Below, piece after piece: positions 29-39,651 of a stretch of DNA of 64,000 bases (position 1 is its first letter; every line of letters begins with the position of its first letter). This DNA is from Lycium barbarum (lineage: Eukaryota; Streptophyta; Magnoliopsida; Solanales; Solanaceae): positions 83,838,543-83,902,542 of the forward strand of contig NC_083346.1 of assembly GCF_019175385.1 (NCBI RefSeq), written 5' to 3'. Below the pieces are notes generated by a model, which searched no databases, was not told the origin of the DNA, and saw only the letters and a program-made list of their open reading frames with translations. Made by a program: the position numbers and the translations under genes.

Positions 29-31
29 AAG

Positions 32-43
32 TGGTATCAGAGC
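32..43 (+). other. Element A primer-binding site (initiator Met tRNA)
   Basis: TGGTATCAGAGC, three bases after the LTR end, is the standard plant initiator-methionine tRNA primer site for minus-strand DNA synthesis. The same 12-mer follows the 5' LTRs of B, E, F and, on the minus strand, K. Confidence 0.95.
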
Positions 44-935
44 AGGTCGTCCTAGGGGTTGGCTGCAAAGTCGTGTCCAGTAGAGTCCTATTTATGGGTG
101 TGAAGCCGGCCACATTTATAAACAGGAGGCTGCAGGGCATCTAGGGATTGTTGACCTTCTTTCTGTCTTAGATCGTGCGATATAGCCAAGTCATAGGAAA
201 ATGGGATTCCTTATACAAGCCTTACATACGACGGAAGAAGGTGAGTGGCGATATGGAAAGTCATAGGGGTAAGTATTGATATCTTGTTCTTTCACCTGAA
301 ATTGGAAGCCCTGGATGGCGGGAATGTGTCATATAGCCGTATGTGCTGTAAGGTATTGTCGATGTTTACTGCGTACATATTTTGAATAGTAAGAATTGTA
401 AAGGAGACTCGATCAGAATTTTTTCAAATCAGGTCATTTAATTAGGTACACCTAACAGGAGGAAGCGTGGAAAGGAAATATCGTAAATCGACAATAAGTG
501 GGATGTGACATTTTAGAGGAGCTACGGATTTGGGTATGGCGTGAAAAAAATGATTGTGAGAAAGACGATTAGCAGTCCAGAGGATTAAAATGGATAACAT
601 CTGAGGTTTAGTAAGAGTAAGGTCTGTTGGAGGATTCAGAGAAAGTTGACAATCAGTTTGCTGTAGATTATTGTGTAAGGATGGTGACTGAAAAATTCAA
701 ACAGGCTGATAACCGAGTGTTTAGTTCATAAGTAACGGCGACGAAGGTGTGTTACGATCAGGAATCTAGGAATCTAGGACGAAGGGTGGTTATACACATA
801 AGTGGAAGGTGAATGTTGAGGATTGAAAAGGGTAAAATAGTAATTGTAAAGGGAAGGACGTGTTACGAAAATGTCTCGAAATCTGTAAGACTTCGACTTG
901 ATCCAGATCATGTGATGAGGGACATGCGATGAGGT

Positions 936-1040
936 AGATGTGATTATATCAGCATTAATGCACCGGATTTCATCGAAGTTTCGAGGTTAAGCGTGCTAAG
1001 GTGAGAGACATATTGGGATGGGTGACCCCCTGGGAAGTGT
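936..1040 (+). other. 5S rRNA-derived segment in element A
   Basis: Hand alignment to the plant 5S rRNA consensus (recalled, not searched) gives roughly three-quarters identity over about 105 nt, starting at 5S position 1. The Pol III internal control region is best kept: GTTAAGCGTGCT (box A) at 986-997, GGGATGGGTGACC at 1015-1027 and CCTGGGAAGT (box C) at 1029-1038. The last 15 or so nt of 5S are not recognisable. Most differences are C/T or G/A transitions. Homologous segments lie at matching places in B, F and K. Whether Pol III uses it is unknown. Confidence 0.85.
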
Positions 1041-2814
1041 GCGAGAAATTCTACAAATCCAGATATGAGAGGCGAATGAAAAGATAGAATAGCCTAAGGG
1101 AAATTAGAGCATACGGAATGGTTGGAAACCGTAAGAGGCCGCGTAGGACAAGGCAGACTAGACTGGAAAAGAGACAGAAAGTGCATCACAGCTCTGGAAT
1201 TAGGATAGGCTTGAATAGCGTTTGGAAGTATTTTGTGGGCGAGTAGTAGTAATTATAGATACATATATATGAATGTGAATGATATCCCATATGCGATGGT
1301 ATCGGTGAGCATGTGTGTCCCTGGCGACTGGTGTTACGGCATGGGAAGCATCAATCGAGCAAGGGTACCGAATTTCAAGTGACAACAAAAATAAATGGTA
1401 CAAGTGTTACAAGGTAAGTTGATGTCATTTTCACTACAAGTTAAGATTGGAAAATTTTAATGCAACGATATTTGGAAAAGAAAGAGTGTGAGTAAATGGA
1501 AGGCAGGGAGATCAAAATATCGGAAAAAGGTGAAAGGTAAGAAACCTCAGTGAGCGAAGTCCCTGAAAGAAACTACAGACAAAGCACGAGACTACTTGGG
1601 CAAAAATTCAAAGGTAGGTACGTGAAAAGGATAAAGTGTGGTAATATGGGACAAAAAAGGAATGTGTGGGGTTCGAGAACCAATTTCAATAAGTGGGACT
1701 GAAGGAATACTGACTGCAACAAGGAATGTGAAGTAAGAGAAAGAATGCTTAGGCTTTGCGACGATGTTAAGGTGAGAAATATATAAAGGAATAAATGTAT
1801 AGTAAAATCTACACGGTTGCCTCGGACATGGAGGAACTTTCCAAAAGGATAATCTAAGAATAGAACAGATTTGTGAGTTTAAAGTAAAAATTTCACGAAC
1901 TTCAGAGCCGATGCCACAAATGGCAAAAGGAGGAAAGTGTTCGAGGAGGAAGGAACCTAAGGAAGGTTAAGGATGAAAGTAGGAAAAGTATACTAACGGG
2001 TTAGTCGAAGGAAGAAGAGAACGTTTGGGAGTAAAATAATAGGAACCCGATTACGCATTGAAGGAAAGAATAAGGATAATGGGTCGACACTGTTGATTGG
2101 GAAATTAATGGTATGGAATGAGGATTTATGTGAGGTCTGGGAGATTTGATCTCAGAGGAAACGGAAATGAAATGTAAGGAACGTGCATGGGAGACCGCTC
2201 GGTCATACCATCATAAACATAATTAAAGGTTCAATGAGCGAGGATGGAGAGAGTGTAAAGCTATAAGGATTTTGTGCTAAGAGCAAAAGTAGCGGGACAC
2301 TCGAAAAACATGGACGCGTAGCTGTAATACAAGCGTGTAGTTAAGACGACTTTCGAGTAAGTGAGCTAAATGGTCGAAAGGACTAGTAGTGGATGGAAGA
2401 GTATGAAAATGCAGAAGAAAAACTAATGATGATATAAACATAAATGGAAGAAGAATTCTGGGGTAGAAGAAGTTTAGGTATGTTATGAGTAAAGTCAGGA
2501 AGAAAGACGAGGAGTGAGGTATAATCAAGATTTCATAAAAAGACATAGTGGATCTCGACGTCCTATGAACTAGTGAGTCCAAGACACCGTTAGTCACGAA
2601 AGACAGAGGTATGGAAAGACGAAAAAGAAGGCATCGAAATTGGATACCCTTATCAGTATTCTAGTTAAATACGAGAGTGTAAGTAGCAAAAAAAAAAAAG
2701 ATAGACAGGCCAGACTATACGATAATGGAACTCGGCTTTAAGAAGAAAGTGAAGGGCGGTAGGTAATTATCGTAGACGAGGATACTCGGAGATTGTTGGC
2801 GTATAAGGAGTCCC

Positions 2815-2830
2815 TTAAAAGGGGGGAGAC
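2815..2830 (+). other. Internal polypurine-like tract in element A
   Basis: TTAAAAGGGGGGAGAC lies about 1.1 kb before the 3' polypurine tract and resembles it. The same tract, after a similar GGAGTCCCTT-like lead-in, occurs in B (23329-23343), F (56830-56850) and, on the minus strand, K (38064-38083). Confidence 0.5.
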
Positions 2831-3627
2831 CATATTATATTAGGCTTAAAAGGAATCACAACATTTCAAGCGCCAGAAAAGGAAATTTATTAGCTCGGGG
2901 CCAGAATTCAAAACATATCGGCATACCAAGAGAATACGTGAAAAAATAGAAACGAATTGACAATGAGTGTACCGTGAGGCCGACATGAATGGAAAGTATG
3001 ATAAGATTCAAAGGATATTTCGGATGACAATGACTGTTAAACGAAAGTATCAACAATCGGTAGTCTGAAATTTTTGAAAGAAAGAAAGAACGCAGTGCCT
3101 ATGAATGAAATAAAAGAGGTCACCGGATACTAGAAAATAGTTCATGGACTATTAATTATACGGAATATGAGAATATACGCTATGAAATTATATGAGTCAT
3201 CGATGTGAAGCGATGCTCGATCACATTTGTAAGGAATCCACACCGGAGAGCCAACAAGAAATAACGACGAACGAAACGAGCGCCAATACAAGGAAATCAA
3301 AGACAAGTATACTCGTGTCAAGAGATGTGAGGGAAGGAAGTAAAGAAAAAGTTGTAGTAAGAGCTCAAGGATGTTGCGAACTGAGAAGTTAAGTGAACTC
3401 GGATCATAAGCTACCATAAGTGTAACTGGACTGCGAAGGATAATAAATGGTAAAGAAACATTACGTACATATGTTTTGGATAAATATTTAGAATGAAATA
3501 TTAAAAAGGATAGTGACAAAGACATAAAGAAAACAGGGAGCGAAGAAAAGAGAACACCAAAGGCCGATGGATATTTATAGCATGGTAAGCGAGACTGCAA
3601 TACTGTAGATAAAATGAGGGCAAGGAA

Positions 3628-3741
3628 CAGCCTGTGGCCATATTGGATCGTCAAGTGAAGATTGCGTACCAAAGACATGGCTTCTGTTAAGGTGTGGTGA
3701 CGAAACAATAACAGAGAAGAGATGATCTGGGGAGTACAAGG
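3628..3741 (+). pseudogene. Decayed chromodomain/integrase C-terminus, element A
   Basis: The DNA aligns with the E chromodomain at about 46846-46960. Shared landmarks include TTGGATCGTCA, GCGTACCAA and TCTGTTAAGGT, then an AAACAATAA run. A 2-bp deletion and stops close the frame. This shows that A descends from a Gag-Pol-bearing chromovirus. A second copy lies at 12621-12734. Confidence 0.75.
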
Positions 3742-3916
3742 ATAATGTGTTGGCGCAGCGGATTAGAAAACCCATGACACGGAATGAGGACTTATGTAAA
3801 GACCGAGAAGTTCGATTATGAGGAAAATAGGGTAAAAGATAAGGAATGGGCATGAAGAAAAGGACAACTATAAGAAGGACCCTCCCGAGGTGTTAAAAGA
3901 CCCCATAAGATCAGTT

Positions 3917-3953
3917 GAACATTCGAGGACGAATGTTCTAAAGGGGGGGAGGA
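3917..3953 (+). other. Terminal hairpin and polypurine tract, element A
   Basis: A perfect 9-bp inverted repeat (GAACATTCG and CGAATGTTC around AGGA, 3917-3938) is followed directly by the purine tract TAAAGGGGGGGAGGA (3939-3953), and then by the LTR. The tract primes plus-strand DNA synthesis. The hairpin occurs before the tract in A, B, E, F and K. Confidence 0.9.
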
Positions 3954-6157
3954 TGTTATAGCCCGTATTTTGTATGTTCGGATAACTCAAGATAATTACG
4001 AGAAGTTACGGGCAAGACTATTTTCCAAAGTTATTTTAATATACAAGTTGTTTATTAGTATGGAAATATTGAGAAAGGCTAAGGGTAAAAAGGAAAATTC
4101 ACAAAGTGGTTCATGGTAATATTGTGGAAGGCTACGGGAAAAATGGGAATTTCACAAAACTTCAAGAAAGTTAATGAAATGTCCATGTGGCCATCCAAGT
4201 TGAGGTGGGCCTTGGCCCACATGGATGAATTATGTATGTATATATATGACTTGTTAGTCATCTTTTCTAACTCTAGAACCTTGGAGAAAAAAAGAAAAAG
4301 AAGAAGGAGAAAGAAAGAGAAGGGTATTCGGCCATGGCTCCCAAAATTGAGCCCATGGAAATTGATCAAGAAAAATTATTTTCTTCTAGTATTCCAACTA
4401 ATTGGAAGGTCCTCTTTAACATGGAGTAATTGTTGGAGTAAGCAAAGTATTCGTTGTGCGAGTTGTGGACTCTAGCCGAGGAAGAAGATGTGTGGAGAAA
4501 GGTATGTGTTCAATCTTCTTTTACTTGTGTTAGGGATGATTTATGCATGTTGTATTATTGAGAAATGAATGAAATTCATGAAAGTATATGTGTGTAAGTT
4601 GTGGCCGAATATAGAGGTGGTGTTGTGTAGATGTGATGAATTGATTTTATTTAGTATTTTGATTGTTGTAGTTGTAGGTTCCATGATGAAAATGAAGGTT
4701 TGATGAATTGAAATGAAGTTGGAATCATTGTGGAATTATTGAAGAAGTTAATGTGACATTAGTATGGTTTCTTATATTTGTATGAATGATATTGCTAATG
4801 TGTAGGTTGTAAATATAATTCCTGAATTTAGAAGTGAGACATGTGTTTGGAAGATTGTAAGTTGGGTTGTAGTTCATGAACTTGGAAGGAAAGGAAATGT
4901 GTTGCTATTGTTCTTGTTGAATTTGGAAGGTTTCGGGTGAAGTAGTATGTTGATGGGGTTGTTTTGAATATTATGTGAATTGTTTGAAGTATTCTTGAAT
5001 CATGTTAGAATGATTTTGGATTAACACTTGAATGTGAGATCATTGGTATTGGCTTGATTATATGCGATTAAATTGAATATAAATGAAATGTCGTTGAATT
5101 GTGTGACGAAGGTTGTTAATGTTAGAATATATTTTAGATTGGTTGTTGAAGTTGATAGTATGATTGTTGGTATTGTTGTAGATAATTTGGCCGAGTTGAA
5201 TTCTCGGATTGTTGTTGATAAATTGGCCGAGTTAGATTCTCGAGGATGGTGTATTTACAGGGGAGAAGCTGCCAAAATTTCGGCAGATTATGAATGAATT
5301 CGTTGAAGAACTAAAGCAAGTGTATGACGACGAATCTAATGATTGTGTGAATTCTTTTGAATGTAGACTAGCAAGCTTGGATAAATAAGCGTAGCTAATA
5401 GGACGTGGGACAGGTACGTAAGGCTTACCCTTTATTTCTTTTGGCATGATCCTTATAAAACAAACAGACGACGTATATGTGTGATATCAAAGAAACTCCT
5501 ATTCTTAGAGCCACTAGGATGGCTAATATTCTTGACTTCCATAAGCTATTTAATATGGTTTTGATGCGTATCTATGATGTCCGAAGTTCTATTTGATATG
5601 TTTCCGAATGACATTCGAGAGATAATTGATATGACTAATGTCTTAATTTTCAAATGATAGCACGTTTGATTATTCCATTGAGTCTTTGATATATTTTGAT
5701 ACGTACATATGGTTCCAAAAGCTCTATTTGATTTGATCCATAACGATACTCGAAAGGTACCTAACATGATTGTTGCTTTGATTTTCCAAAAATGGCTTCT
5801 GAAACGTTCGTAGAAGGTTCTGTACTAAAACGTCCATAACTTTTTCATACTAACTCGGATTGACTTGAAACGTGTTTACGAACCTCAAGTCTCGATCTAT
5901 GTACTTATCCATCGAGTCTTGAAATTTGTTTTATGTGCATATGGTTTCTCACTACTTTGCTCGTGCATGCCTCAATGCATCTTTCACCGAGTCCCGGGCC
6001 GGGTATGTTATCATGCGCATTCCACTGCATTGTTCACCGAGTCCCTCATTAGAGGGCCGGGTACGGTATATGTATATGATGACATGATGAGATGATGATA
6101 TGTTACGGCGGCCAGGAGGGCATATGATGATTTGATTCACCGAGTCCCTCACTAGAG
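3954..6157 (+). mobile_element. Element A 3' LTR, first part
   Basis: It begins TGTTATAGCCCG after the polypurine tract and continues until B interrupts it. The LTR resumes at 26680 and totals about 3,060 bp. It contains a TATA-like stretch (about 4233-4246), splice-donor-like AAAGGTATGTG near 4499, CCGAG/CTCGG and CTGCC/GGCAG inverted repeats (about 5183-5291), a donor-like AGGTACGTAAGG near 5411, and hairpin modules from 5985. The final TAGAG (6153-6157) is the TSD of B. No coding sequence is seen. Confidence 0.9.
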
Positions 6158-6949
6158 TGTTGTAGCCCGTATCTTGTACATTTGGAAATCCCAAAGTCGT
6201 CATGGTAAGTTAAGGACAAGACCATTTTCAAAAGTTATTTTAATGTATAAGTTGTTATGAATATTACTTATGAATATTATTAGTATGGAATATTGAGAAA
6301 GGTTGAGGTTTTTGAAGTAAAATAAAGTTTAAAGTAAAGTTCGGGAAGTCTAGTTTCCAACGGAACAAGCGGCACCTCAATCGGACATCGGGGTAAGGAG
6401 CTATGAACATTAAAAGTTGGAGGGGCAAGCTAGGAAAATAGTCTGCGCAAACGCGCCAGCGAGTGGCGCGAACGCGCAGAACAAAAAATTGAGAATCAAG
6501 TTCAGGATGAAGTTTGTGTTATGGGGAGGTAATAATAACATATATATGACATTTGGAGACAATATGATGTGAAATAGTTCATATGTTATTCGACGAAGAG
6601 CCCTCGTTGCTGCAAGCTAAGTGGGTCCCACACGTTGGAGTTTTATAAAGGATATATGAAGATATATACGAGTAGCATATGGAAAGTTGAGCAAGTCCTA
6701 AGAAGGACCCGTAAGCCAAAAATGGGCATAAGCCCTCCAGAAGGACGATTTAAGGAAATATTTTCGGATGATCTGAATTGGAGGGGCAAAAAGGGCATCA
6801 TAAGTTTTGAATTTGGGAAAACACCCAGAAATAAAAGTTGTAGATAATTGAATTATCTTTCCAACCATAGGTCGTGGGTTCTCACACGATATCGGTATCA
6901 AAAGTTATGACCGTTTTACTGAATGAAGGTCCAGGCAGAAAATGTACAG

Positions 6950-7048
6950 AGCGAACGCGCCAGAATTAAGCGCGAACGCGCTGAACACTTTACAGTCAGG
7001 AAATTTAACTCTACGCGAACGCGCCAAAAATGGGCGCGAACGCGCAGA
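6950..7048 (+). promoter_or_regulatory. CpG-rich palindromic repeat cluster in LTR B U3
   Basis: Four copies of a GCGAACGCGC-type motif sit within 100 bp, just upstream of the TATA box; a related pair is at 6444-6479. The same arrangement appears in the second copy of B, in the B 3' LTR (about 24355-24452) and in LTR F. This is a candidate enhancer or silencing site, by position only. Confidence 0.55.
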
Positions 7049-7083
7049 AGCATTTTAAGTCGGTTCTGGGCAGAATCTAGAAC

Positions 7084-7094
7084 CTTATAAAAAG
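7084..7094 (+). promoter_or_regulatory. TATA box of LTR B
   Basis: CTTATAAAAAG is followed by a C-rich stretch typical of a plant start region. It repeats at 16077 in copy 2 and near 24487 in the 3' LTR. Transcription would begin about 25-35 bp downstream, leaving a very long R-U5. Confidence 0.65.
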
Positions 7095-7852
7095 GGGCAA
7101 ACCCCCTTATTTCTTCATCCAACACCTCAAAACCTTCCCCAAAGCTCTGGAAAATTTCCCCAAATCCCAAGACCAAATTTTAAGCCCCAACCAGGTATAA
7201 TTTCCAAATTCCAGTCCGGGTAGCGTATAGTTTTCGCTGCAGAATTGTATAGCGGGCGTGTGGTGGCCTAAAATTAGCATGAAAAGGTGGAGATACATCC
7301 ATATTAAAGGGAGGAAGGTATGCATCTCTTTCTATTTGTGTTAATATCGGTTTATTTACGAAGAAAATGCGATTAAATAATTGTATACTGAGTTGGTTAG
7401 TTATGAAAGTTGGAAAACAGCGTGTGGGCTGTTTTATGGAATATTTTGGAGTTGGAAATATTATGAATAATGTTGGTATTGTTATTGTTGTTGTTGGTTG
7501 CTGAATTGAGAATTCGGGCTAGGCATATAAACAGGGGAGATGCTGCCAGATTTTCGGCAGAATGTAGAATAGTATAATTTGACACTTGGGATAAGTGTGT
7601 GATAAAAGGACTAACATTAGTGTGAATCCTCCCAAATGTAGATTTACGAGCTTGGACGAATAAGTGCAGCTAATAAGAGGTTGAACAGGTATGTAAGGCT
7701 TACCCTTTCTTTCTTTTGGCATGTCCTAGAGCCAATTAAGGTATGATATTGATATGTACATTGGGGTTATTCTATTCTGTGATTCCGAGTCTGTTTGTGA
7801 CCCGTATGCCCTCCCTTATGTAAGTATCTAATAATCCTGATAGGCGGGTTCT

Positions 7853-8165
7853 GACTTAAGTATTCTGACATCCGTATGTTGACATAAGTATTCTGGTCTG
7901 AGAATTCTAACATAAATATTCTAACGAAAGTATATGGCATAAGCGTTCTGATATGAAAACTCCTGATACAAATACGTATTCTGATCTGAGTATTCTGATA
8001 TAAGTAATCCGATACGGATAATCTGATATGGGTATCCCCAACTTTGAATTAAGTATTCTGAAGTAAGTATTCTGACATAAGCACGCTGAGATAAATATTC
8101 TGACATAATCCTTCTGATATAAGCATTCAGGTATAAGTAATCTATTACGGGTATTCGGATAGTGC
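7853..8165 (+). repeat. Degenerate short tandem repeat in LTR B
   Basis: Many diverged copies of a unit like AGTATTCTGATATA are spaced roughly 13-17 bp apart. It creates repetitive open frames on the minus strand that are not genes. Copies lie at 16846-17158 and 25257-25570. Confidence 0.75.
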
Positions 8166-8684
8166 GTTAGATTAATCCATTGTGTCTTGGTTATGTGCAT
8201 TTAGTTTCTCATTTTCTGCTCGTGCATAGAGTCTACTTCCTTCACCGAGTCCCGGGCGGGTTTATATCGTGCGCACGGTTCCCGAGTTCCTCTCCTGAGG
8301 GACGGGCGTCGTATATGAATTCTGAAGTATTATGTGTTTGGTTCGCTGAACCGCCTGTATGCATATGTACATTCTGATATTATGATATGTGTCGGAGACA
8401 GGAGCAAATCTTCTGAAGTATGATGTGTATGGTGCCTAAGGCCGGGAGGCGCCACGTTTTCCCCGGGTCCTGTAAAGGACCGGATACCGTTCTTGGCATG
8501 CATGGTCTGTGTTCCAGTAAGCCATTTCTACTATTTTGTATATCATCTGTATATCTGAGTCTGATTATGATCCCGTCTGTTATACTTCGGTACTTTTGAG
8601 TCTGATTCTGATTCCGTCTGTTATACTTCTGTACTTTTGATTCTGATTATGATTCTGTTTACTGTACTTCTTGCCTTACATACT

Positions 8685-8742
8685 CAGTACATATTCCGTA
8701 CTGACCCCCTCTTCTTCGGGGGTTGCGTTTCATGCCACGCAG
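8685..8742 (+). other. Triple-hairpin module of LTR B
   Basis: Three adjacent inverted repeats: CAGTAC/GTACTG (8685-8703), CCCCC/GGGGG (8705-8722) and TTGCG/CGCAG (8723-8742; CTGCG in the 3' LTR). Counterparts in A, C, E, F, K, J and I support a structured RNA in R or U5. Confidence 0.75.
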
Positions 8743-9254
8743 GTACACCCAGATGAGCAGAAGACTTTGCTAGGAGATGTGTCAGCGGGATTGGCGAGCT
8801 CCACCCTCCTCCGGAGTGTCGCCGAGTCAGAGCGTGTATAAGATGTGATTTCTGATCTGTGTTAGAGACTTTGCAGACAGAGTTGTGGGTACATAGAGTC
8901 AGTTCGTAAGCAGCTTTATATGTCCACAGATTCTGTTTGGTCTGGTCTGAGATCTGTGTCTTAGGCGGCCCTGTTTGCTACGGTGGCCTAAGTGGCCCAC
9001 ATGTTTGTATATGTACGTATGTTTAGGCGATGTACATTCCGGCTGTTCACGGGATTTGGCATGACATGTTTGATACCCGTGGCCGCTTAAGACGATGTCT
9101 GTTCTCCGTTTCTGTTGAAAGTCTTATTGTATGTTTTATGTGATTTGATCTGGAAATTTGAGAGAATATGTATGAAATCAGCGTCCGAGGGTTCGCTCGG
9201 CTCCGTATGTGGGGTCGGGTGCCCATCATACCCTAATAAGGTTAGGGTGTGACA

Positions 9255-18247: not shown

Positions 18248-18484
18248 AAGTGGTATCAGAGCGAGGTTTGTCCGTGGGGTTATCTGCAAAGTCGTGTCCA
18301 GTAGAGTTCTGTTTATGGTGTGAAGCCGGCCACATTTATAAACAGGAGGCTACAGGGCATTTAGGGATTTTTGACCTTCCTTCTGTCCTAGATCGTGCCA
18401 TAGAGCCAAGCCGTAGGAACTGAAATCCTTATGTAAGCCTTACATATGACAGAAAAGGTAAGTGGCGACATGGAAAGCCACAGG
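18248..18484 (+). mobile_element. Element B internal region, 5' part (copy 2)
   Basis: Duplicate of 9255-9491 with the primer site at 18251-18262. The ACAGG before 18485 and the ACAGG at 21926-21930 are the two TSD copies of solo LTR C. Confidence 0.9.
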
Positions 18485-20920
18485 TGTTATATCCCGCACT
18501 TTCGCATGTTCGGGAAAATTCGAAATGATCTTGATTTGTAAGGAATAAAGCCATATGTTGAATTGAATTCACATGTGTGCGTTGTTCATGAAAATATTGG
18601 TGTGGAAATACGGAAGAAGGCCAAGGACAAAATTGGAATTTTAGAAATTAGTTTCGGGAATTTTCAAAATACGGACTACATTAATTGGGCTAAAAAAAAT
18701 ATAGAAAAAGGCCCAAATGGAGAGAGCTTGGCCGGCCATAGTAGGCCCAAGCCCATGGAAATTTTCCATGTGTTAATTACATAAAAGGGTGATTAAGTCA
18801 TAGAAGCTTCAAGACATTTCAAGAAAGGAAATACAGGCCAAGGATGCAAGAACAAAAGCAAGGCCATTTCGGCCAAGACCATGGAAATTTGGGTAACTTA
18901 AATCTTGTTCCAAAAAAATTTTTCTTGTAGTATTCCTACCAATTCAAGTACCCTCTACAACGTGGTATAATTATTTCGGAAGATGGTTCATCCGTTTCAT
19001 CGTTTTCGCACTTTGGGCAAGTGAAGGAGTTGAAGAGAAAGGGTAAGATTTAATCCCTTTTTATGTGTTATGAAGGTTTGGTTTATGTTGTAGGAGGTAG
19101 AAAGAGTTAAAATTCATAAGAATATGGAAGATTGCATGGTATTTATATGTATGTATGTGTAGCCGTGGATGCCTTGATGTATAAGTAATATCAGTTGAAT
19201 TTTATGTTGTATCCTAGTTATGGTTATGGTGAAATTTATATTAGAAATGAAAGTGGAATGAATTTGGTTGAAATTGAAAACATAGGTGTGTGGCCGTGTG
19301 GTATTGTGTTGATAGTGGAAGATGAATTAAATTCCTTTAGTATGATAATTGTGTTGTTGTGAAGTGAATGGAAGAATAATGGTTCTTGTTGTTATGGAAA
19401 ATTTGTTGTTAAGTTGTTGTAGGAAGGTATGCAACTTTATTATAATTTATGTAAATATGAAAATGGAAGTCGTTAAGGTGTAAATGATAATCATTGTTGA
19501 TGAAGTTGGAAGATAGAAACATGTTATGGAAATGTTTGTTAAAGATTGGAAACCTTGGATGAATTATGACTTTAGTAGAAAGTTTGTATATTTGGTATAC
19601 CTTGTGAATATTTTGTAGAAAGGATATGAAATGCTTCCAAATTGCGTTGTAATGATCAGGATTAATGGTGAATATGAAAATATTGAGATTGGTTTGGAAG
19701 TGTGAGGTCGGAATGAAAGATATTGCGTTATGTCGGAAAGAAGGCTAGTTTCATTATATTTTGTTATATTGTGATTGTTGTTGTTGTTGATGTTGTTGTT
19801 GGGTTGTTGATTGTTTTGGCTAAATTAGACTTTCGGGAATGTTGAATTTATAAAGGAAATGCTGCCGAAATTTCGGTAGGCAAGTATGTGCTTAACATCA
19901 TATTCTTAAGGCTTGAATATGACAATTGGTAAAAGTGACCATTTGCAGATTTTGGACGAAACGGGAATCGAATTTGAGCGAGCGTAAGGCGCAACCAAGG
20001 TATGTAAAGCTGTCCTTTTCCTTCTCTTGGCATGTCCTAGGTGTACTAGGCTTGAATTTGAGCCTCGGGGATTATTCTGTTCGTAGAAAATCGAGTTTGA
20101 TTTTGGGCACTATTCATTCAATGCAATTGAACTAGTTTTCTTATAATTTGCTTATAAAGTAAACTATATGTATGCAACTTCCTAAATGGAGTCGGAATGC
20201 CTAAAAACGATCAAGGACGACCTCATAAGGTCTATTACCTATAATTTATGTACGCCACCTCGAGTTGGTCCGAGGTGGGCCCACAAAGCTCCGATACTTT
20301 TTGTATAACTTTAATTGCCTTGTTTCTGTCCGATCTTCACAGGCAACATCTGGGCTATTATTCTGTTCATTATATGACAAGTGTTATGACTATTTTTATA
20401 AGTCTTATAAAATGATTTTGACATCTGGAACGTTTTTGGAGATCTTATTCTGGTAAAATCTGTCGTGCCGTCCGAAGCGACATATATGCATATGTTATGA
20501 ATATTGTCTGAATACTTTGATTTGACCAGCCGTTTGGCCTACTTCAGTTCCATTGAGTCTGTATGATGGTCTGTGTGTATGTGGTTTCTCATTAATCTGT
20601 TCGTGGATGCCTCAATGCTTCCTTCACTGCGCCCTGGCCAGGTTCTGTTATCGTGCACATTCCACTACATTGTTCACCGCGTCCCTCGGTGTGCGGGCCG
20701 GGATCTGTTTACATCTGTATATGATATTATGATGTGTGTATGGGGATGGCGGCCAGGATGGCATATGATCTGATCTGTCTGTCCACCGCGTCCCGAACTA
20801 AGAGGGCCGGGTTCTGTTACCGCGTCCCTCATGAGAGGGCCGGGATCTGATATATGTATGTATGTATATGCTATCTGCATCTGTATAAGCATATGACTCT
20901 GTATGACTCTGCATGCATGA

Positions 20921-21235
20921 TTCTGTCTGTCCGATTGGTTTATCATTCTGTCCGTTACACTTTTGTCTGTCCGATTGGTTTATGATTCGGCCCGTTACAC
21001 TTCTGTCTGTCCGCTTGGATTATGATTCTGTCCGTTACACTTCTGTCTGTCCGATTGGATTATGATTCTGTCCGTTACACTTCTGTCTGTCCGATTGGAT
21101 TATGATTCTGTCCGTTACACTTCTGTCTATCCGATTGGATTATGATTCTGTCCGTTACACTTCTGTCTGTCGGATTGGGTTACGATTCTGTCTGTTACAC
21201 TTCCTGAAATCGGATTCGGTAAATGATTTTGTCTG
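20921..21235 (+). repeat. 40-bp minisatellite in LTR C
   Basis: About seven to eight head-to-tail copies of a 40-bp unit containing TCTGTCTGTCCGATTGG and GATTCTGTCCGTTACAC. The copies diverge toward the right. The array begins about 25 bp beyond the duplication breakpoint at 20896, so unit 1 lacks it. Confidence 0.85.
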
Positions 21236-21465
21236 CGTCACTTCTGTATATCTAATCCGGACCATGATTCCGTCTATTACATTTCTGTACCTCTGGCTCT
21301 GATTATGATTATGTCAGTCACATTCTGTGCCCCTGATCCGTACGATGATTCTGCCAGCTAGACTCTGTATTTCTATTTCGGATTCGAGTTCGATTCTGTC
21401 CACTATATTTCTGTACTTCTGGTTCTGATTATGGTTATATTCGTTACATTTTCGCTTTACATACT

Positions 21466-21523
21466 CGGTACCTTTTTCGTACTGACCCCCTGTTCTTCGG
21501 GGGCTGCGTTTCATGCCGCGCAG
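21466..21523 (+). other. Triple-hairpin module of LTR C
   Basis: Stem 1 is CGGTAC/GTACTG with one G-U pair (21466-21484), stem 2 CCCCC/GGGGG (21486-21503) and stem 3 CTGCG/CGCAG (21504-21523). Confidence 0.75.
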
Positions 21524-21925
21524 GTACTCCCAGACGAGCTGAAGTTATTACAGAAGATGATCCAGCGGAGTTGGCAAGCTCCATTTGCTCCTGGAGTGCT
21601 GCCGAGTCAGAGTTTGTATGTTATGACTTCTGGACTTATGTTAGAGACTTTGCAGACAGTGTCGTGGGTATTGGTTGTCAGTCTGTATGCGGCTTCGTCA
21701 GCCGATATATCGGTCTATGTTATGTTCTGAATTCTGTGTGATTATAGATTGGTTCGGCTTTGAAACCTTGAGAAAGAATATTTCAAAAAAAAATTACTAT
21801 GTATTTTATTTTATTTAACTTAAAACGTTTGATGTGACTTTATGTGCAACAGTAGTCTGAGGGTTCGCTCGGCCCTAAGTAAGGGTCGGGTGCCCATCAC
21901 ACCCTAGTAAGGTCGGGGTGTGACA

Positions 21926-23562
21926 ACAGGGGTAAGTATTGACGTATTTGCCCTGTTACCTGGAATTGGCAGTCCCGGAGGGCCAGAATGTGGTATAGCC
22001 GTATGTTCTGTAAGGCGTTATTGATATTTTCTGTGTACAGGGAATGATATAAGAGGAAACAAGGTCTGATGGAGGATTCAGAAAGTTGACCGTTAATTTT
22101 GCTACAGGCTATTATGTAAAAACGGTGAGTAGGAAATTCGAACGGACTGATACCCGGACATTTATGAAGTAATGGCAACGAAGGTGTATCTGTTACCATC
22201 AGGGATCTGGGAACCTACGACGAAAGGTAGTTACGCACGAAAGTGAAGGGTAAACACTGAGGGTCGAAAAGGGTAAAATGGTAATTGTGAAAGAAAGACG
22301 TGTTACGAGGGTGTCCCGGAATCTGTAAGACCTCGACTAAGCCCGAATCATGTAATAAAGGTCATGTGAGGAGGTGGACGCGAAAATATCAGCATTAAGG
22401 CACCGAATTCCAGCAAAGTTTCAAGGTTAAGCGTGCTCAGGTGGAAGCAATCCTAGGATGGGTGACCCCCCTGGGAAGTTTACAAGGAAATTCTACATAT
22501 TCTGACATAAAAGACATGAAAAACCAGAACAGTCTAAGTGAAACTAGAGTATATGGGATGGTTGGAGACCATAAGAAGACACGTATAACGAGGCGGACTA
22601 GCTCGATGAAGAGACAAAGAGTGCGTCTCAGTTCAGGAATTAGGACAGGCTTGAATAACGTTTGGAAGTATTTTGTGGGTTAGTTGATAATAATTATGTA
22701 TATGTATATGAATATGTATGATGGCTCATTTGTGAGGGTATCCGTGGGCATGTGTTTTCCCAACAACCTGCGTAACGGTAAAGGAGGCCCCAATCGAGAA
22801 AGGGATACCGGAACCTGAGTGGTAGTAAGAAAACAAATGGTGCAAGTACCACAAAGATAAGAAGCTATCTTCGCTACAGGTTAGGGATAGAAAAATCTGA
22901 ATACTATGATGTCTGAAGGAGAAAGAGAGTGAGTAGATAGGAAACAGGGAGGCTGGAGTATCAGAAGGAGGTTCGAGCGCCAATGTCGATACGTGAGGAT
23001 AAAGGAATGGTAACTAGGGAAGGGGGATACGAAGTAAGAAAGAGAATGTTTAGGTCCATAATAATGATAAGATAAGAGATTTATAAAATAATAAGTATGT
23101 AATTATGATAATGTATGAGCAAAGATAAGGAGAGTAAAGATTCTGTGCTAAGGACAAAAATGGCGGAATGCTGAATAAATATGGATGTACAGTTATGGCA
23201 CAAACGCGCGTTAAAGGAAGAATTTAGAATAAGAAATTTTGATATGTGGGCGTAGGGTTGGAGGGAGAGTAAAGAATGATGTATAAATGAAGACTTCATA
23301 AGAAGACTGTTGGCATATGAGGAACCCCTTAAAAAGGGGGAGACCATATTATCTTAGGACAACGAGAGGTCGCAATATTTTCAAGTACTAGAAAAAGAAA
23401 CCCATAATATGGAATTAGGATTCGTGTAAGGATTCAGGGGCTGGTTAATGAGGAAAGTAGGATGAAGGATATCGAATGGGCATGAACCTCCTCCCGAAGC
23501 GCTACAATACCCCATAAGGTCAGATGAACATTCGAGGACGAATGTTCTAAAGGGGGGGAGGA
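21926..23562 (+). mobile_element. Element B internal region, 3' part
   Basis: It begins with the second ACAGG and continues B's interior to the polypurine tract. B's whole interior is only about 1.9 kb, with no gag-pol and no chromodomain remnant that I can see. It contains the 5S-derived segment (22376-22480), a block after it that is conserved in A, F and K, an internal G-rich tract (23329-23343), the terminal hairpin (23526-23547) and the polypurine tract (23548-23562). Confidence 0.88.
22376..22480 (+). other. 5S rRNA-derived segment in element B
   Basis: It starts GGACGCGA, which corresponds to 5S position 1. GTTAAGCGTGCT (box A) is at 22426-22437 and AGGATGGGTGACC at 22456-22468. CTGGGAAGT follows after a one-base insertion in the C run. 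The position inside the element matches that in A and K. Confidence 0.85.
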
Positions 23563-26500
23563 TGTTATAGCCCGTATCTTGTACATTTGGAAATCCCAAA
23601 GTCGTCATGGTAAGTTAAGGACAAGACCATTTTCAAAAGTTATTTTAATGTATAAGTTGTTATGAATATTACTTATGAATATTATTAGTATGGAATATTG
23701 AGAAAAATTGAGGTTTTTGAAGTAAAATAAAGTTTAAACTAAAGTTCGGGAAGTCTAGTTTCCAACGGAACAAGCGGCACCTCAATCGGACATCGGGGTA
23801 AGGAGCTATGAACATTAAAAGTTGGAGGGGCAAGCTAGGAAAATAGTCTGCGCAAACGCGCCAGCGAGTGGCGCGAACGCGCAGAACAAAAATTTGAGAA
23901 TCAAGTTCAGGATGAAGTTTGTGTTATGAGGAGGTCATAATAACATATATATGACATTTGGAGACAATATGATGTGAAATAGTTCATATGTTATTCGACG
24001 AAGAGCCCTCGTTGCTGCAAGCTAAGTGGGTCCCACACGTTGGAGTTTTATAAAGGATATATGAAGATATATACGAGTAGCATATGGAAAGTTGAGCAAG
24101 TCCTAAGAAGGACCCGTAAGCCAAAAATGGGCATAAGCCCTCCAGAAGGACGATTTAAGGAAATGTTTTCGGATGATCTGAATTGGAGGGGCAAAAAGGG
24201 CATCATAAGTTTTGAATTTGGGAAAACACCCAGAAATAAAAGTTATAGATAATTGAATTACCTTTCCAACCATAGGTCGTGGGTTCTCACACGATATCGG
24301 TATCAAAAGTTATGACCGTTTTACTGAACGAAGGTCCAGGCAGAAAAAGTACAGAGCGAACGCGCCAAAATTAAGCGCGAACGCGCTGAACACTTTACAG
24401 TCAGGAAATTTAACTCTACGCGAACGCGCCAAAAATGGGCGCGAACGCAGAAGCATTTTATGTCGGTTCTGGGCAGAATCCAGAACCTTATAAAAAGGGG
24501 CAAACCCCCTTATTTCTTCATCCAACACCCCAAAACCTTCCCCAAAGCTCTGGAAAATTTCCCCAAATCCCAAGACCAAATTTTAAGCCCAAACCAGGTA
24601 TAATTTCCAAATTCCAGTCCGGGTAGCGTATAGTTTTCGCTGCAGAATTGTATAGCGGGCGTGTGGTGGCCTAAAATTAGCATGAAAAGGTGGAGATACA
24701 TCCATATTAAAGGGAGGAAGGTATGAATCTCTTTCTATTTGTGTTAATATCGGTTTATTTACGAAGAAAATGCGATTAAATAATTGTATACTGAGTTGGT
24801 TAGTTATGAAAGTTGGAAAACAGCGTGTGGGCTGTTTTATGGAATATTTTGGAGTTGGAAATATTATGAATAATGTTGGTATTGTTATTGTTGTTGTTGG
24901 TTGCTGAATTGAGAATTCGGGCTAGGCATATAAACAGGGGAGATGCTGCCCGATTTTCGGCAGAATGTAGAATAGTATAATTTGACACTTGGGATAAGTG
25001 TGTGATAAAAGGACTAACATTAGTGTGAATCCTCCCAAATGTATATTTACGAGCTTGGACGAATAAGTGCAGCTAATAAGAGGTTGAACAGGTATGTAAG
25101 GCTTACCCTTTCTTTCTTTTGGCATGTCCTAGAGCCAATTAAGGTATGATATTGATATGTACATTGGGGTTATTCTATTCTGTGATTCCGAGTCTGTTTG
25201 TGACCCGTATGCCCTCCCTTATGTAAGTATCTAATAATCCTGATAGGCGGGTTCTGACTTAAGTATTCTGACATCCGTATGTTGACATAAGTATTCTGGT
25301 CTGAGAATTCTGACATAAATATTCTGACGAAAGTATATGGCATAAGCGTTCTGATATGAAAACTCCTGATACAAATACGTATTCTGATCTGAGTATTCTG
25401 ATATAAGTAATCTGATACGGATAATCTGATATGGGTATCCCCAACTTTGAATTAAGTATTCTGAAGTAAGTATTCTGACATAAGCACGCTGAGATAAGTA
25501 TTCTGACATAATCCTTCTGATATAAGTATTCTGGTATAAGTAATCTGTTACGGGTATTCGGATAGTGCGTTAGATTAATCCATTGAGTCTTGGTTATGTG
25601 CATTTAGTTTCTCATTTTCTGCTCGTGCATAGAGTCTACTTCCTTCACCGAGTCCCGGGCCGGTTTATATCGTGCGCACGGTTCCCGAGTTCCTCGCCTG
25701 AGGGTCGGGCGCCGTATATGAATTCCGAAGTATGATGTGTTACGAAGTATGATGTGTTTGGTTCGCTGAACCGCTTGTATGCATATGTACATTCTGATAT
25801 TATGATATGTGTCGGAGACAGGAGCAAATCTTCTGAAGTATGATGTGTGTGGTGCCTAAGGCCGGGAGGCGCCACGTTTTCCCCGGGTCCTGTAAAGGAC
25901 CGGATACCGTTCTTGGCATGCATGGTCTGTGTTCCAGTAAGCTATTTCTACTATTTTGTATATCATCTGTATATCTGAGTCTGATTATGATCCCGTCTGT
26001 TATACTTCGGTACTTTTGAGTCTGATTCTGATTTCGTCTGTTATACTTCTGTACTTTTGATTCTGATTCTGATTCTGTTTACTGTACTTCTTGCCTTACA
26101 TACTCAGTACATATTCCGTACTGACCCCCTCTTCTTCGGGGGCTGCGTTTCATGCCACGCAGGTACACCCAAATGAGCAGAAGACTTTGCTAGGAGATGT
26201 GTCAGCGGGATTGGCGAGCTCCACCCTCCTCCGGAGTGTCGCCGAGTCAGAGCGTGTATAAGATGTGATTTCTGATCTGTGTTAGAGACTTTGCAGACAG
26301 AGTTGTGGGTACAGAGAGTCAGTTCGTAAGCAGCTTTATATGTCCACAGATTCTGTTTGGTCTGGTCTGCGATCTGTGTCTTAGGCGGCCCTGTTTGCTA
26401 CGGTGGCCTAAGTGGCCCACATGTTTGTATATGTACCTATGTTCAGGCTATGTACATTCCGCCTGTTCACGGGATTTGGCATGACATGTTTGATACCCGT

Positions 26501-26674
26501 GGCCGCTTAAGACGATGTCTGCTCTTCGTTTCTATTGAAAGTCTTATTGTATGTTTTATGTGATTTGATCTGGAAATTTGAGAGAATATGTATGAAATCA
26601 GCGTCCGAGGGTTCGCTCGGCTTCGTATGTGGGGTCGGGTGCCCATCACACCCTAATAAGGTTAGGGTGTGACA
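23563..26674 (+). mobile_element. Element B 3' LTR
   Basis: 3,112 bp, TGTTATAGCCCG to GGGTGTGACA, then TSD TAGAG (26675-26679). It differs from the 5' LTR by scattered substitutions and a 15-bp local duplication near 25740 (GAAGTATGATGTGT repeated). TATA is near 24487, the TATTCTG-type minisatellite at 25257-25570 and the triple hairpin at 26105-26162. Confidence 0.95.
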
Positions 26675-30116: not shown

Positions 30117-33002
30117 TGTTATATCCCGTATTTTGCGCATTCGGAAAATTTGAAATAATTTTGACTTGTAAGAAATAAGGCTATGTTTTTATTTTATTTA
30201 AAATATGTGTGATATTCATGAAAAATATTGATGCGGAGATACGGAGGAAGGCCAAGGGCAAAATTGGAATTTTGGGAATTTGTTCCGTGAATTGCCAAAT
30301 AAGATCCATAATAAATTGGGCTCAAACAAATAAGATAAATTAAGGCCCAAATCAAAGGGGTGGCCGGCCATATGGCCAAGGCCCAACCCATGGGAAAATT
30401 ATTCATTGTGGCAATAAATAAAGGGGTCTTCTTCATCTTTATCAAGAAGTTTCAAGAAAAACACACAAAAAGTTTGAGAGCACTTCAAAGGCCATTCGGC
30501 CGAACCAAAGAAAAAAAAAATTCAAGTCCTTCAACTTTAATCCAAAAATCTCTTCCTTCTTGAATTCTTATTAAGTTCAAGACCCTCTACAACGTGGCAT
30601 AATTAGTTAGGCGAGAGGACTACGTTTGTGGCAAGTGGAAATTTGAAGAAAAAGGTAAGAATTTTATTCTCTTATATTATGGAAGAAGTATATATGTTAT
30701 AATGATTAGAATTGCATGAAAATCATGAAATTGGTGTGAGTGTGTGCATGGCCGTGTGGTGTGTGTGAGGTCGTGTGGTGTGGTGGTGAAGGGGAGATGA
30801 GTTAAATTTTATTTAACTCGTTAGTTGTGTCATTGTGGCATTTATGATGTAAATAAAGGTTTAATAATTCGAGTCGGCATTGAAATTGATTATAAGTCGT
30901 TATAAGGGATTATGTGATAGTTTTTATGTAATTACGGAAGAAAAATTCTAAAATGTGAATTATTGTTGTTGTTAATGAATTTGAAAGAAAACAATGCGAC
31001 TTGGTAGTTTCGTTGCATTTGTAGAAGTTTCGGATGGAATATGGAGTTGGCGGGATTGTTTGGATCCTTAAATATTGTTTGAAATGCTCTTGAATTATGT
31101 TTGCATAATCTTGAATTAGTAAATGAATATGAAAATGTTGATATTAGTTCGAAAGTGTGGAGTTGGAATAGAAGTTGTTGCACTATGTGGAAAGGAAGAC
31201 TAGTTGTGTTCGGATGTGTTTTGTAGTGATTATTGATGTTGTTGGTATTGTTGTGGGTGTTGTTGTTGATATTTTGGCCGAGTTAATTCTCGGGGATGTT
31301 GAATTTATAGGGCAAATGCTGCCGGAATTTCTGTAGACAAATATGGGTTTAAGATTGAATTCCTAAAAGCTTATAATTCAGATTTGGTAATTATGACCAA
31401 TTGTAGATTTTGGAGGAAATGGGATTTGAGTTCGGACGAGCGTAAAACGCAAATAAGGTATGTAAAGCCCTACCTTTCCTTCTTTTGGCATGTCCTAGGT
31501 GTACTAGGCTGTGATTTGAGCCTAGGGGAAGATTCTGTTCATGGGCATCCGAGTTCGATTTTGATGCTATTTCATTCAATGAAATTGAATTAGAACCCTT
31601 GTATTTTGTTGGAAAGAAATGTTCAAACATTTGTAACTTTCACAAACGTAACCGAATCGTCTTGAAACTTTCATGGATGACTCCATAGAGTCTAATGTTT
31701 GTAAATCACGTACGCCACCTCGACAAGAATCGTCTTGAAACATTCTTTGTCCTATTTGACTTATTTCTGTATGATATCAAAAAGGGACTTTTTCTTATGA
31801 TTTTAGCTACCAAAGAATAATGTTCTAATTGCTCCATTACATTCTGATAAACACTTTGAACTACAAATACGATTTCAGAAGTACTTTTGTGAGACAGACC
31901 TCATATCGTTCAGTTGATTAAACTAGTCTACCTAACTTGTCGTCATGTTATTATATCAAGTCTTTACAAATGTTTTATATGTAAATTGCATTTAGTTTCT
32001 CACTACTCCGCTCGTGCATGTTACTATGATATCGTTCGCCGGATCCCGAGCCGATTTTGTGATCGTGCGTACTATGACATATTCGGCAGTATGATGTGTT
32101 ACGGTTCCCGAGACCTCGCCATAGGGCCGGGTACCGTTTGCATACGGCGTTATGATGTGATATGGCATATGTTATGTTTGATGATATGATATGTATGATG
32201 ATACGACATGTTCGGGGATTGTACGGAGAATTGAAACTTTCTGGAGTATGATGTGTTGTGGCGCCAGTGTCGGAGTGGCGACCACGTTCCTGAGCCTTAT
32301 GCATGATTTCTTTTTGTTTGCATTATGTACACATGTTTTCAGCACAGGTTTTGATATACTGATTCAGTATTCTTTCTTTGTACCTTTCACTTCAGTTGTG
32401 GTTTGGATTTCTGTACTCTATGCTTTACATACTCAGTACATCTTTCGTACTGACCCCCTTTCTTCGGGGGATGCGTTTCATGCCCGCAGGTACTGACGTT
32501 CGTGATCCGCCAGTGTAGGCTATACATTCTGCTACTACAGAGTGCTCCTTTGATCCGGAGCCCATATTTTGGTATATATCTTTTGTCATGTATATGCTTA
32601 TGTATATTTGACTATTTGGGGTATGGCGGGGCCCTGTCCCGTCATATGCTTCCGTTATAACTTGTAGAGGCCTGTAGTCATATATGTGGGTCATGGGTCG
32701 TGTGTGTGTTCGTTTTGTTTATGATTTGCGTCTTAATGCGGTCCCGTCTGTTATAGCGGCCAAGATGGCCCGTATGTTTGTATATGTGCATATATTCGGC
32801 GATGTATATTTCGCCGCCCCTTTTGGCTCTGATATGATATTTCTGTACGCGCGACCGCTTAAGATAATAATTATTTTCAGTTCTGTTTAAAATGACGAAT
32901 ATTAAATTTGAGTTAATCTATAATATGACGATTTGGTATGTAAGTCTGTTTTGGGTGTCCAACTAGGGCACCAGTCGCGGCCCACGGGGCTGGGTCGTGA
33001 CA
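30117..33002 (+). mobile_element. Element E 5' LTR
   Basis: 2,886 bp, TGTTATATCCCG to GGGTCGTGACA, preceded by TSD AGTAC. TATA-like AATAAATAAAGGGG is near 30411, donor-like AAAGGTAAG near 30653, AGGTATGTAAAG near 31457, and the triple hairpin at 32434-32489. The primer site TGGTATCAGAGC follows at 33007-33018. The 3' partner is 47149-50044. Confidence 0.95.
32434..32489 (+). other. Triple-hairpin module of LTR E (5' copy)
   Basis: CAGTAC/GTACTG (32434-32452) and CCCCC/GGGGG (32454-32470). The third stem, ATGCG/CGCAG, has lost its first pair; the 3' LTR keeps CTGCG/CGCAG (49513-49531). Confidence 0.75.
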
Positions 33003-33006
33003 AAAG

Positions 33007-33018
33007 TGGTATCAGAGC
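33007..33018 (+). other. Element E primer-binding site
   Basis: TGGTATCAGAGC, four bases after the 5' LTR end. The leader to 33206 contains the TATAAACAGGAGGCTACAG block (about 33089) shared with the gag-pol-less elements. Confidence 0.95.
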
Positions 33019-33206
33019 GGTTTGTCATCGGAATTTCTACAGGCCGTGTCTCGTAGAGTCTTGTTTATCGGTGTGTTGTGCACCACATCTATAAACAGGA
33101 GGCTACAGGACATTTAGGGTGTTACCTTTCTTTGAATCTTAGATCGTGCGATAGAGCTGTGCTATTAGGATGACTCTTTTCTGATCGGCTGTTGTGTTTT
33201 TCATTG

Positions 33207-34080
33207 ATGCCTCTGAAGAAGGCGACGACTGCCCAGAAAGGAAAAGCGGTAGGAGATACCAGTCAGATGCAGAGAGTTACTCGGGCTCATGCTCAGGTTA
33301 TGCCCGATGTTGTGCCTCAGTCAAAGGGTTCAGCTACACCACCACCGGAGGAGCCTAGAGCAGGTCCATCATTAGCTCCAGAGGCTCCAGCGCCCGAGCC
33401 TCCAGCTCCTCAGCCAGGGGCGGAGGATAGGGCGATGAGGGAGGTCGTACAGTTGTTGACGACGTTGGTAGCAGGACAGGCTCGCAGACGCGGGTTGAGA
33501 GGTGATGATGATGATAGACGTGACAGTCTGAGGGTTTGTGACTTCCTGACATGTAATCCCCCAGAGTTTTTTGGGTCTAAGCCCGATGAGGACCCCCAGG
33601 ACTTTATTCGGCAGATGCAGCGCTCATTGAGACTAGTCAGGGCTTCAGAGACCAAGTCTGGTGAGTTAGCTTCGCACAGATTACGAGATGTCGCGATTAA
33701 TTGGTATGAGTCCTGAGAGTTGTCCAGAGGTGAGGGTGCTCCCCCAGCGGTGTGGGACGAGTTTGTAGCCACTTTTCTCCGCTACTTTTTGCCCCCAGAG
33801 TTGCGGCGGGCGAGGGTTGATAGATTTTTGCAGTTGCGACAGAGAGGTCGGAGTGTTCGTGAGTATAATTTGGAGTTTGATTCTCTGGCTAGATATGCAC
33901 CTGCTATAGTGGCTGATATGGCTGACCCGATGCACCGGTACGTGATAGGGTTGGATCGCTATTTGGTTGACAGCTGCATGGCGATGGCATCGCAGACTGA
34001 TATGGACATCGCCCGATTACAGGCTTAAGCTCATGGGATGGAGGACCGGCATAGGGGAGAGCAGCCCAGTATGGATCGAG
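33207..34080 (+). pseudogene. gag: Gag, N-terminal and capsid part (element E)
   Basis: Structural Gag of a Ty3/gypsy chromovirus. The ATG at 33207 opens a Lys-rich start, then a Pro/Ala-rich stretch, then a capsid-like domain with NPPEFFG, DPQDFIRQM and, after the first stop, FLRYFLPPELR and RGRSVREYNLEF, typical of retrotransposon Gag. TGA at 33714-33716 and TAA at 34026-34028 break the frame; both fit single C-to-T or G-to-A changes (TGG and CAA as likely parents). At 34080 element K interrupts the gene inside a codon; the same frame resumes at 43077. In a live element Gag would form the cytoplasmic particle. Confidence 0.9.
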
Positions 34081-35014
34081 TGTTACACCCCGACTTTACG
34101 AGGGTGTGATGGGCACCCGACCCCATATCCGGAGCCGAGCGAACCCGCTGACTATTGTTACATACTTAACTTCCTTAGACTCTTATATCAATAAAAATGG
34201 AAAACATAGTAAAACTTTCAAGATATTTTTTTTTCTTTTTTTCCATCGTATTCAAATCAAACAGAATCTGTAATCACATGGACTTTATGATATAACATAT
34301 TATCGACACTCTATACCGACGACTCTGTCTGCAAAGTCTCTAACATCAAACAAACATCATGGCTCGGATACTCTGACTCGGCAGCACTCCAGAACAAGTG
34401 GAGCCTGCCAACTCCGCTGGAACATCTTCTATGATAGTTGTGGCTCATCTGGTGTATCTCCGCGGCATGAACGCAGCCCCCGAAGAAGAGGGGTCAGTAC
34501 GAGTAATGTACCGAGTATGTAAAGCATGAATAGTACCATAATAAGGAATATACAGTATGAACAATAACAGAATAGACATAAGGAGCTTATCCTGGGACAG
34601 ATGTAACCTGTACTTAAGAGTGCCTTTCTGCAGATGTCATGCATGCTTAGTTTCTTTTTCAGAAAACGGTGTTTCTTATTTACATATACAGAAAACAGAA
34701 CATTTCAGAAAACGGTGTCCTTCATTTACATTCACAGACGCCGAGTATATCGGCTCTCCCACCCCCCCTCCCCAACAGTGTCCCAACATATTATATATAT
34801 ATATATATATATCACAAATATAGACGCCGTATCCGGCTCTCCCATAATCCCGCGTCCGGGCATCCCGCATCCGGGACGAAATCCAGCTGAATCAGGTGGT
34901 GATATAACAGTGGCCCTTCCCCTTCCCCATATACATATACATATACACATTCACATTCATATTCATATGTCATACAATTGGCATGCATGAGAGCCCAAAG
35001 AAAGTCATGTGTCC

Positions 35015-35046
35015 ATCGGAGTGACGTAAGGTCGAAACCCTCCGAT
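35015..35046 (-). other. Hairpin with TGACGTAAGGTCG loop in LTR K
   Basis: ATCGGAG pairs with CTCCGAT around a loop containing TGACGTAAGGTCG. It repeats at 40582-40613 in the other K LTR, at 52880-52911 in LTR F and, with ATCGGGG/CCCCGAT, at 58109-58140 in LTR J. Confidence 0.7.
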
Positions 35047-37068: not shown

Positions 37069-37070
<2 letters not shown>

Positions 37071-39648: not shown

Positions 39649-39651
39649 CTT

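Follow-up and report, generated by a model that had tools for sequence, protein, structure and literature searches.

A 5S rRNA-derived segment in the internal region of large non-autonomous LTR retrotransposons of Lycium barbarum

Nested retrotransposons and their 5S-like segments

The window (the whole 64,000-nucleotide stretch of Lycium barbarum DNA analysed here) is plant retrotransposon DNA, one element nested in another. Self-comparison and inspection of the ends revealed five elements with visible internal regions: four that we call A, B, F and K, and an autonomous-type chromodomain gypsy element, which we take to be of the Tekay/Del type, the lineage name used here for chromodomain gypsy elements (Table 1). 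The 3′ LTR of A is broken by B and resumes after it up to 27535, where its final 28 bases equal the first 28 bases of the window; B itself is bordered by the target duplication TAGAG, found before 6158 and after 26674. K (9.0 kb, with LTRs of ~3.4 kb) is nested inside the autonomous-type element, whose target duplication is AGTAC, and its own flanks, CACGA and CTCGA, are alike at four of five bases. A 9.0-kb tandem duplication (2916-11908 and 11909-20896, 99.86% identity) cuts across the nested elements and is thus younger than them, and the solo LTR in the leader of B contains a tandem repeat region at 20921-21351.

Table 1 Coordinates of retrotransposon features and 5S-like segments in the window.
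Feature	Position	Strand	Details
A, end of 5′ LTR	28	+	
A, internal region	29..3953	+	lies between the 5′ LTR, ending at 28, and the 3′ LTR, starting at 3954 behind the common polypurine block
A, primer site	32..43	+	TGGTATCAGAGC
A, 5S-like segment (5S 1-103)	936..1038	+	aligned 937-1038 = 5S 2-103; 78%, score 116; RF00001 40.2 bits
A, 5S positions 50-103	985..1038	+	box A motif 985-996, IE 1002-1007, box C motif 1015-1027, tail to 1038
A, TTTT (putative Pol III terminator)	1231..1234	+	+296 from 5S start; inside island 1188-1243, second most conserved over 54 columns
A, broken integrase C-terminal/chromodomain remnant	3622..3730	+	matches pieces of the window's integrase at 79% and 85% identity (E 4.9e-08); with stops
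A, 3′ LTR, first part	3954..6152	+	
B, 5′ LTR	6158..9254	+	tandem-duplicate copy 15151-18247
B, primer site	18251..18262	+	duplicate copy 9258-9269
Solo LTR within B leader	18485..21925	+	clean target duplication ACAGG
B, 5S-like segment	22376..22479	+	5S 1-103; 75%, score 101; RF00001 32.9 bits
B, TTTT	22671..22674	+	+296
B, 3′ LTR	23563..26674	+	97.7% identity to 6158-9260
Autonomous-type chromodomain gypsy element	30117..50045	+	LTRs 30117-33003 and 47149-50045; interrupted by K
Autonomous-type element, gag piece	33174-33716	+	
Autonomous-type element, pol pieces	43178-47020	+	
K, whole element	34081..43071	-	5′ LTR 43071-39652, internal 39651-37443, 3′ LTR 37442-34081
K, primer site	39648-39637	-	
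K, 5S-like segment	38858..38960	-	aligned 38956-38858 = 5S 5-103; 71%, score 78; RF00001 17.8 bits
K, TTTTT inside 5S segment	38913..38917	-	+44
F, 5′ LTR	50759..53868	+	
F, internal region	53869-60686	+	3′ LTR start 60687
F, primer site	53873-53884	+	
F, 166-aa acidic ORF in leader	54082..54582	+	DPSEDP-like repeats; upstream of 5S segment, ~0.2 kb past primer site
F, 5S-like segment	54919..55021	+	5S 1-103; 73%, score 94; RF00001 27.0 bits
F, TTTT inside 5S segment	54951..54954	+	+33
F, TTTT downstream	55212..55215	+	+294

All five elements share the same primer site and a common block before the polypurine tract. The frames of the autonomous-type element cover protease, reverse transcriptase (RT), RNase H and integrase as well as the gag piece: Pfam returned RVT_1, RVP_2, RNase H and Integrase_H2C2 above their cut-offs, with rve (28.5 versus 32.6 bits) and Chromo (24.7 versus 25.1 bits) just under theirs, and the RNase H has relatives in several eudicots.

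A, B, F and K carry one segment apiece that resembles 5S rRNA, located in the internal region downstream of the primer site and not in the LTRs. Local alignment to a plant 5S sequence gave nearly gap-free alignments at 71-78% identity, and the scores (78-116) exclude a chance match to 5S, since 20 first-order Markov sequences built from the window had best scores of 26-33. The rest of the window has no further 5S match scoring above 29, that is, none above control level. The likeness stops past position 103: 12-14 of the next 16 positions differ. An earlier, sequence-only reading of this DNA had described four 5S-like segments of about 105 nt, lying 0.7-1.0 kb after the primer site in elements with LTRs of about 3 kb, and both statements are confirmed: the distance from the 5′ LTR to the start of the segment is 908 bases in A, 692 in K and 1051 in F, and ~682 in B, where some 0.68 kb of element sequence precedes the segment in a leader split by the solo LTR.

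The same reading had proposed the Rfam 5S covariance model as a check, which succeeded for two of the four copies. In a cmscan of the whole window with RF00001, A exceeded the gathering threshold of 38 bits (E 7.9e-05), B was significant (E 0.0064) and F was not (E 0.24); K was missing from the list and gave E 0.26 when scanned alone in 251 bases. The covariance model is significant for A and B only, and the assignment of F and K rests on sequence alignment together with homology of the whole region. None of the segments has the make-up of a functional 5S rRNA gene: similarity ends at 103, helix I is open and loop E is altered. Elements like A can be miscalled as 5S genes by covariance models. 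Exact-pattern scans for further copies in virus and prokaryote contig collections, which have little bearing on plants, returned none.

The four elements had also been called gag-pol-less. We detected no working gag-pol in them: a tblastn search of the window at E up to 0.01 with the gag and pol pieces of the autonomous element, which a very divergent gag would escape, found beyond that element itself only the chromodomain remnant of A and its tandem duplicate. This remnant, next to the 3′ LTR of A, points to descent of the non-autonomous family from a chromodomain gypsy element, or to recombination with one. The description needs amending for A, which has the remnant, and for F, which has a 166-aa ORF. 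The latter has 25 database relatives at 37-83% identity, of which the 13 named ones are all from Lycium, and no match in Pfam; it is possibly an accessory protein of otherwise gag-pol-less elements. A coding role for the 5S segment itself was considered and rejected: the 94-aa frame of B across it gave two candidates and no protein match at E up to 1. The 5S-bearing elements are related to the chromodomain gypsy element of the window, with no working gag-pol detected. The further claim that only gag-pol-less elements carry the segment agrees with all that the window offers, namely four of four such elements against none of one autonomous element.

Uneven decay of the 5S segment

Rates of change were counted as parsimony changes on the A-F/B-K grouping in a four-way alignment of 865 columns. 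The slowest 54-column window of the alignment is 5S positions 50-103, with 0.30 changes per column against 0.72 in the flanks (the 54-column length and the box limits were chosen with the 5S layout already in mind). Its 54 columns hold 16 changes where 39.1 are expected from the flanks, and none of 20000 random draws was as low; column shuffles had an equally low minimum in 3 of 2000 cases at 54 columns and 7 of 2000 at 24 columns. Positions 1-49 do not differ significantly from the flanks (30 changes versus 35.5 expected, P 0.15). Box A marks the start of the slow stretch, which extends six bases beyond box C, as far as the 5S similarity itself; within it changes per column are 0.33 in box A, 0.33 in the intermediate element (IE), 0.86 in the spacer at 73-79, 0.17 in box C and 0.00 at positions 98-103. 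The sequence-only reading had named box A, the IE and box C as the best-kept parts of the segment and had suggested comparing box and flank rates; the column rates bear it out on both counts, at 0.17-0.33 per column in the boxes. Counted as variable columns, the boxes and tail (50-72 and 80-103) have 9 of 47, the remaining segment 30 of 56 and the flanks 451 of 761 (Fisher P 0.0005 versus the rest of the segment, 7e-8 versus the flanks).

This pattern also holds in each of the two independent pairs. A and F differ at 7 of 54 positions in 50-103 versus 174 of 646 (P 0.014), and B and K at 5 of 54 versus 219 of 637 (P 4e-5), with positions 1-49 somewhat slow too in the latter (P 0.03). These counts show an uneven decay of the segment, in which the promoter half is comparatively well kept, and we infer selection for promoter function.

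Further slow islands lie downstream of the segment in the four-way alignment, at 1091-1144 (0.48 changes per column) and 1188-1243 (0.44); past the latter, change climbs to 0.77-0.91 per column. When scanned at 36 columns, an island at 1197-1234 nearly ties with the promoter (0.33 versus 0.31).

The motifs themselves agree with those published for Cassandra, a plant retrotransposon with a 5S promoter. Out of 25 motif positions, A and B have no mismatch and F and K two each, one base in each box, compared with 4.7-6.9 mismatches in simulations (P 0.003 for A, 0.001 for B, 0.04 for F and 0.008 for K). The published Cassandra box pattern with its gap is exact in A and B (2 of 4), and in all four copies box A through the box C motif takes up 42 bases.

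Promoter, relic or RNA mimic

The explanation that we favour, and to which we give roughly an even chance, is that the captured 5S segment has been kept as an internal Pol III promoter without its 5S fold. A large non-autonomous relative of the chromodomain gypsy element would have taken host 5S sequence, from position 1 to ~103, into its internal region, and several families would have inherited it. The part retained would be the type-1 internal Pol III promoter, meaning box A, IE and box C together with the distances between them; TFIIIA and TFIIIC would bind it, and Pol III would start at the old 5S start and make a short sense RNA, ~0.3 kb long in A and B. Such an RNA lacks the 5′ LTR and the primer site and so cannot be the transposition genome, which would presumably still be made from the LTR by Pol II. 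The benefit to the element could be local, if the copy is kept bound and transcribed, or could come through an accessory RNA. Box positions, the role of loop E, substitution rates and Pol III termination at T-runs are used here as general background.

In A and B the first TTTT from the old 5S start is at +296, and both could yield a 0.3-kb Pol III RNA. F and K in their present form probably would not: each has a T-run inside the segment, and K has CTTT where A, B and F have the downstream TTTT. The Pol III promoter role put forward by the sequence-only reading is a plausible candidate role, favoured by the intact box motifs and the distal TTTT of A and B, and opposed by the internal T-runs of F and K and by a transcript without 5′ LTR or primer site. 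That Pol III is active at the segment, makes this RNA and so serves the element is what we infer from the DNA. A stronger version, in which the segment heads a private Pol III gene whose ~0.3-kb sense RNA ends at the TTTT co-located in A, B and F and is made beside the Pol II genome, would make these two-polymerase transposons with the internal promoter under selection and the RNA fold not; we advance it only tentatively. A structured 0.3-kb RNA is unsupported for A, the copy that was folded: 187 of 200 shuffled versions folded as stably as its predicted 300 nt or more so (z +1.40).

A plausible though on balance doubtful alternative to a kept promoter is that the segment, once captured, is a relic that decays neutrally, its better 3′ half being due to chance or to some other demand on the sequence of the element RNA. 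In favour of a relic are the T-runs within the segments of K and F, the P of only 0.014 that the A-F pair reaches by itself, and better-conserved islands elsewhere in the A-F internal region: along the 2.4 kb aligned between A and F the promoter window takes 55th place of 2400, and the 54-column islands at 1959-2012, 2264-2317 and 2599-2652 of A have only 4, 4 and 5 differences from F, with two more windows tying at 7. Against neutral decay, the slow stretch runs from box A to precisely the end of the 5S similarity with a free spacer within it, the slow promoter half recurs in both independent pairs, and its minimum was matched by so few of the column shuffles.

The sequence-only reading had also offered 5S mimicry for nuclear export or packaging. 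The element RNA would fold like 5S and bind TFIIIA or the ribosomal protein L5, and the pre-mRNA of plant TFIIIA, which carries a 5S-mimic exon, provides a precedent. A passes the Rfam threshold, and pairs are well retained in helix III (8 of 8 in A, 7 in B, 7 in F and 6 in K) and helix IV/V (8, 9, 8 and 8 of 10, in the same order), so that a crude null puts overall pairing slightly above expectation (P 0.03-0.10). However, a null that keeps substitution types leaves helices II-III (P 0.31-0.60) and IV-V (P 0.33-0.46) no better than chance, helix I is reduced to 4, 2, 3 and 4 of its 9 pairs, the AGUA of loop E is altered in all four copies (CATA in A, AATC in B and F, AATT in K), and the covariance score of K is low. 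A kept 5S fold is out for helix I and loop E, and the loss of these two parts disfavours mimicry, which we regard as improbable, and favours an internal Pol III promoter. Which parts are kept and which are lost is thus more in keeping with a promoter acting as DNA than with conservation of the RNA fold.

One capture, handed down to several lineages

Where the segment came from is a question separate from its function. It may have arrived with a Cassandra element or its LTR and not directly from a 5S gene, an origin that we consider credible but unlikely: the box motifs, their spacing and the primer site agree with published Cassandra, which likewise conserves the boxes and varies in between.

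All four copies differ from 5S by the same nine substitutions, at positions 20, 34, 43, 44, 46, 50, 67, 75 and 93, five of them in 1-49 and four in 50-103, and the flanks of the segments align on both sides. Because of these shared substitutions and homologous flanks, we consider a single old capture of 5S sequence, handed down to several element lineages, to be shown; the sequence-only reading had surmised the same ancestral capture. The opposite scenario, in which every element received its own recent 5S insertion or host 5S genes converted the copies repeatedly, has no supporting evidence that we could find and is ruled out for practical purposes by the same shared substitutions, G75A and T93C among them, and by the flanks.

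By informative columns the best-supported pairing is A-F and B-K, with 53 columns versus 32 and 20 for the other two groupings. The two LTRs of K differ by a K2P distance of 0.0135, those of B by 0.017-0.018 and those of F, over 1336 columns, by 0.062, and flank divergence between elements is 23-41%. The LTR distances are far below the flank divergence, so most of the change in B, F and K came before their insertion; the LTR pair of A is incomplete in the window.

Comparison with known elements

One relative lies within the window, the autonomous chromodomain gypsy element. It resembles the 5S-bearing elements in primer site, pre-polypurine block, LTR ends and 5-bp target duplications, and differs in having no 5S segment and in encoding protease, RT, RNase H and integrase. 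It is likely their mobilising partner.

In size the 5S-bearing elements resemble the LARDs (large retrotransposon derivatives): their LTRs are 3.1-3.4 kb and their internal regions 2.2 kb (K), 3.9 kb (A) and 6.8 kb (F). LARDs, Sukkula for example, are described as non-autonomous elements of large size that have a core domain but lack gag-pol (PMC7215508). The elements of this window share with them long LTRs, a long internal region and the absence of encoded gag-pol products, and depart from them in the chromodomain remnant of A and the ORF of F. We found no LARD with a 5S segment in the open-access literature.

Promoters from small-RNA genes occur in other non-autonomous LTR elements. PMC10886601 groups Ajax and Helenus as TRIMp3, elements of miniature size whose promoter is in the LTR; Ajax, from nemerteans, contains part of a 5S that lacks the canonical fold, and the Helenus promoter is tRNA-derived. 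Both resemble the elements described here in being non-autonomous with sequence from a small-RNA-gene promoter, Ajax also in its partial 5S, and both differ in being miniature with the promoter in the LTR, where ours are large with an internal 5S-like segment. PMC4717578 reports no 5S sequences in the other TRIM families studied there.

Cassandra, which the sequence-only reading had cited as precedent for a 5S promoter in an LTR, is so described in the literature. It is a plant TRIM of 563-968 bp with the 5S promoter in the middle of the LTR, and it keeps the boxes and varies between them (PMC10853983, PMC7215508). The elements of this window are likewise non-autonomous LTR elements with 5S-derived boxes, free spacers and an exact methionine primer site in A, B, F and K. 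The placement differs: Cassandra has its segment in the LTRs, and here it lies after the primer site, once per element and 0.68-1.05 kb past the LTR end. Nor are these elements miniature, with LTRs of over 3 kb and, in K, a total length of 9.0 kb. A, B, F and K are not Cassandra by place and size, and are Cassandra-like in box structure.

In the open-access literature, which leaves out most subscription papers, we came across no large LTR element described as having its 5S promoter in the internal region. In the 5S-bearing LTR elements that this literature does describe, the promoter is in the LTR and able to drive the transposition genome. If a large element keeps such a promoter internally, the promoter would have to serve some other purpose, and these elements thereby become a test case for the roles of Pol III promoters in retrotransposons. 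They also bear on the origin and movement of the 5S module of Cassandra, because their primer site and box spacing are those of Cassandra and an autonomous relative can be seen beside them.
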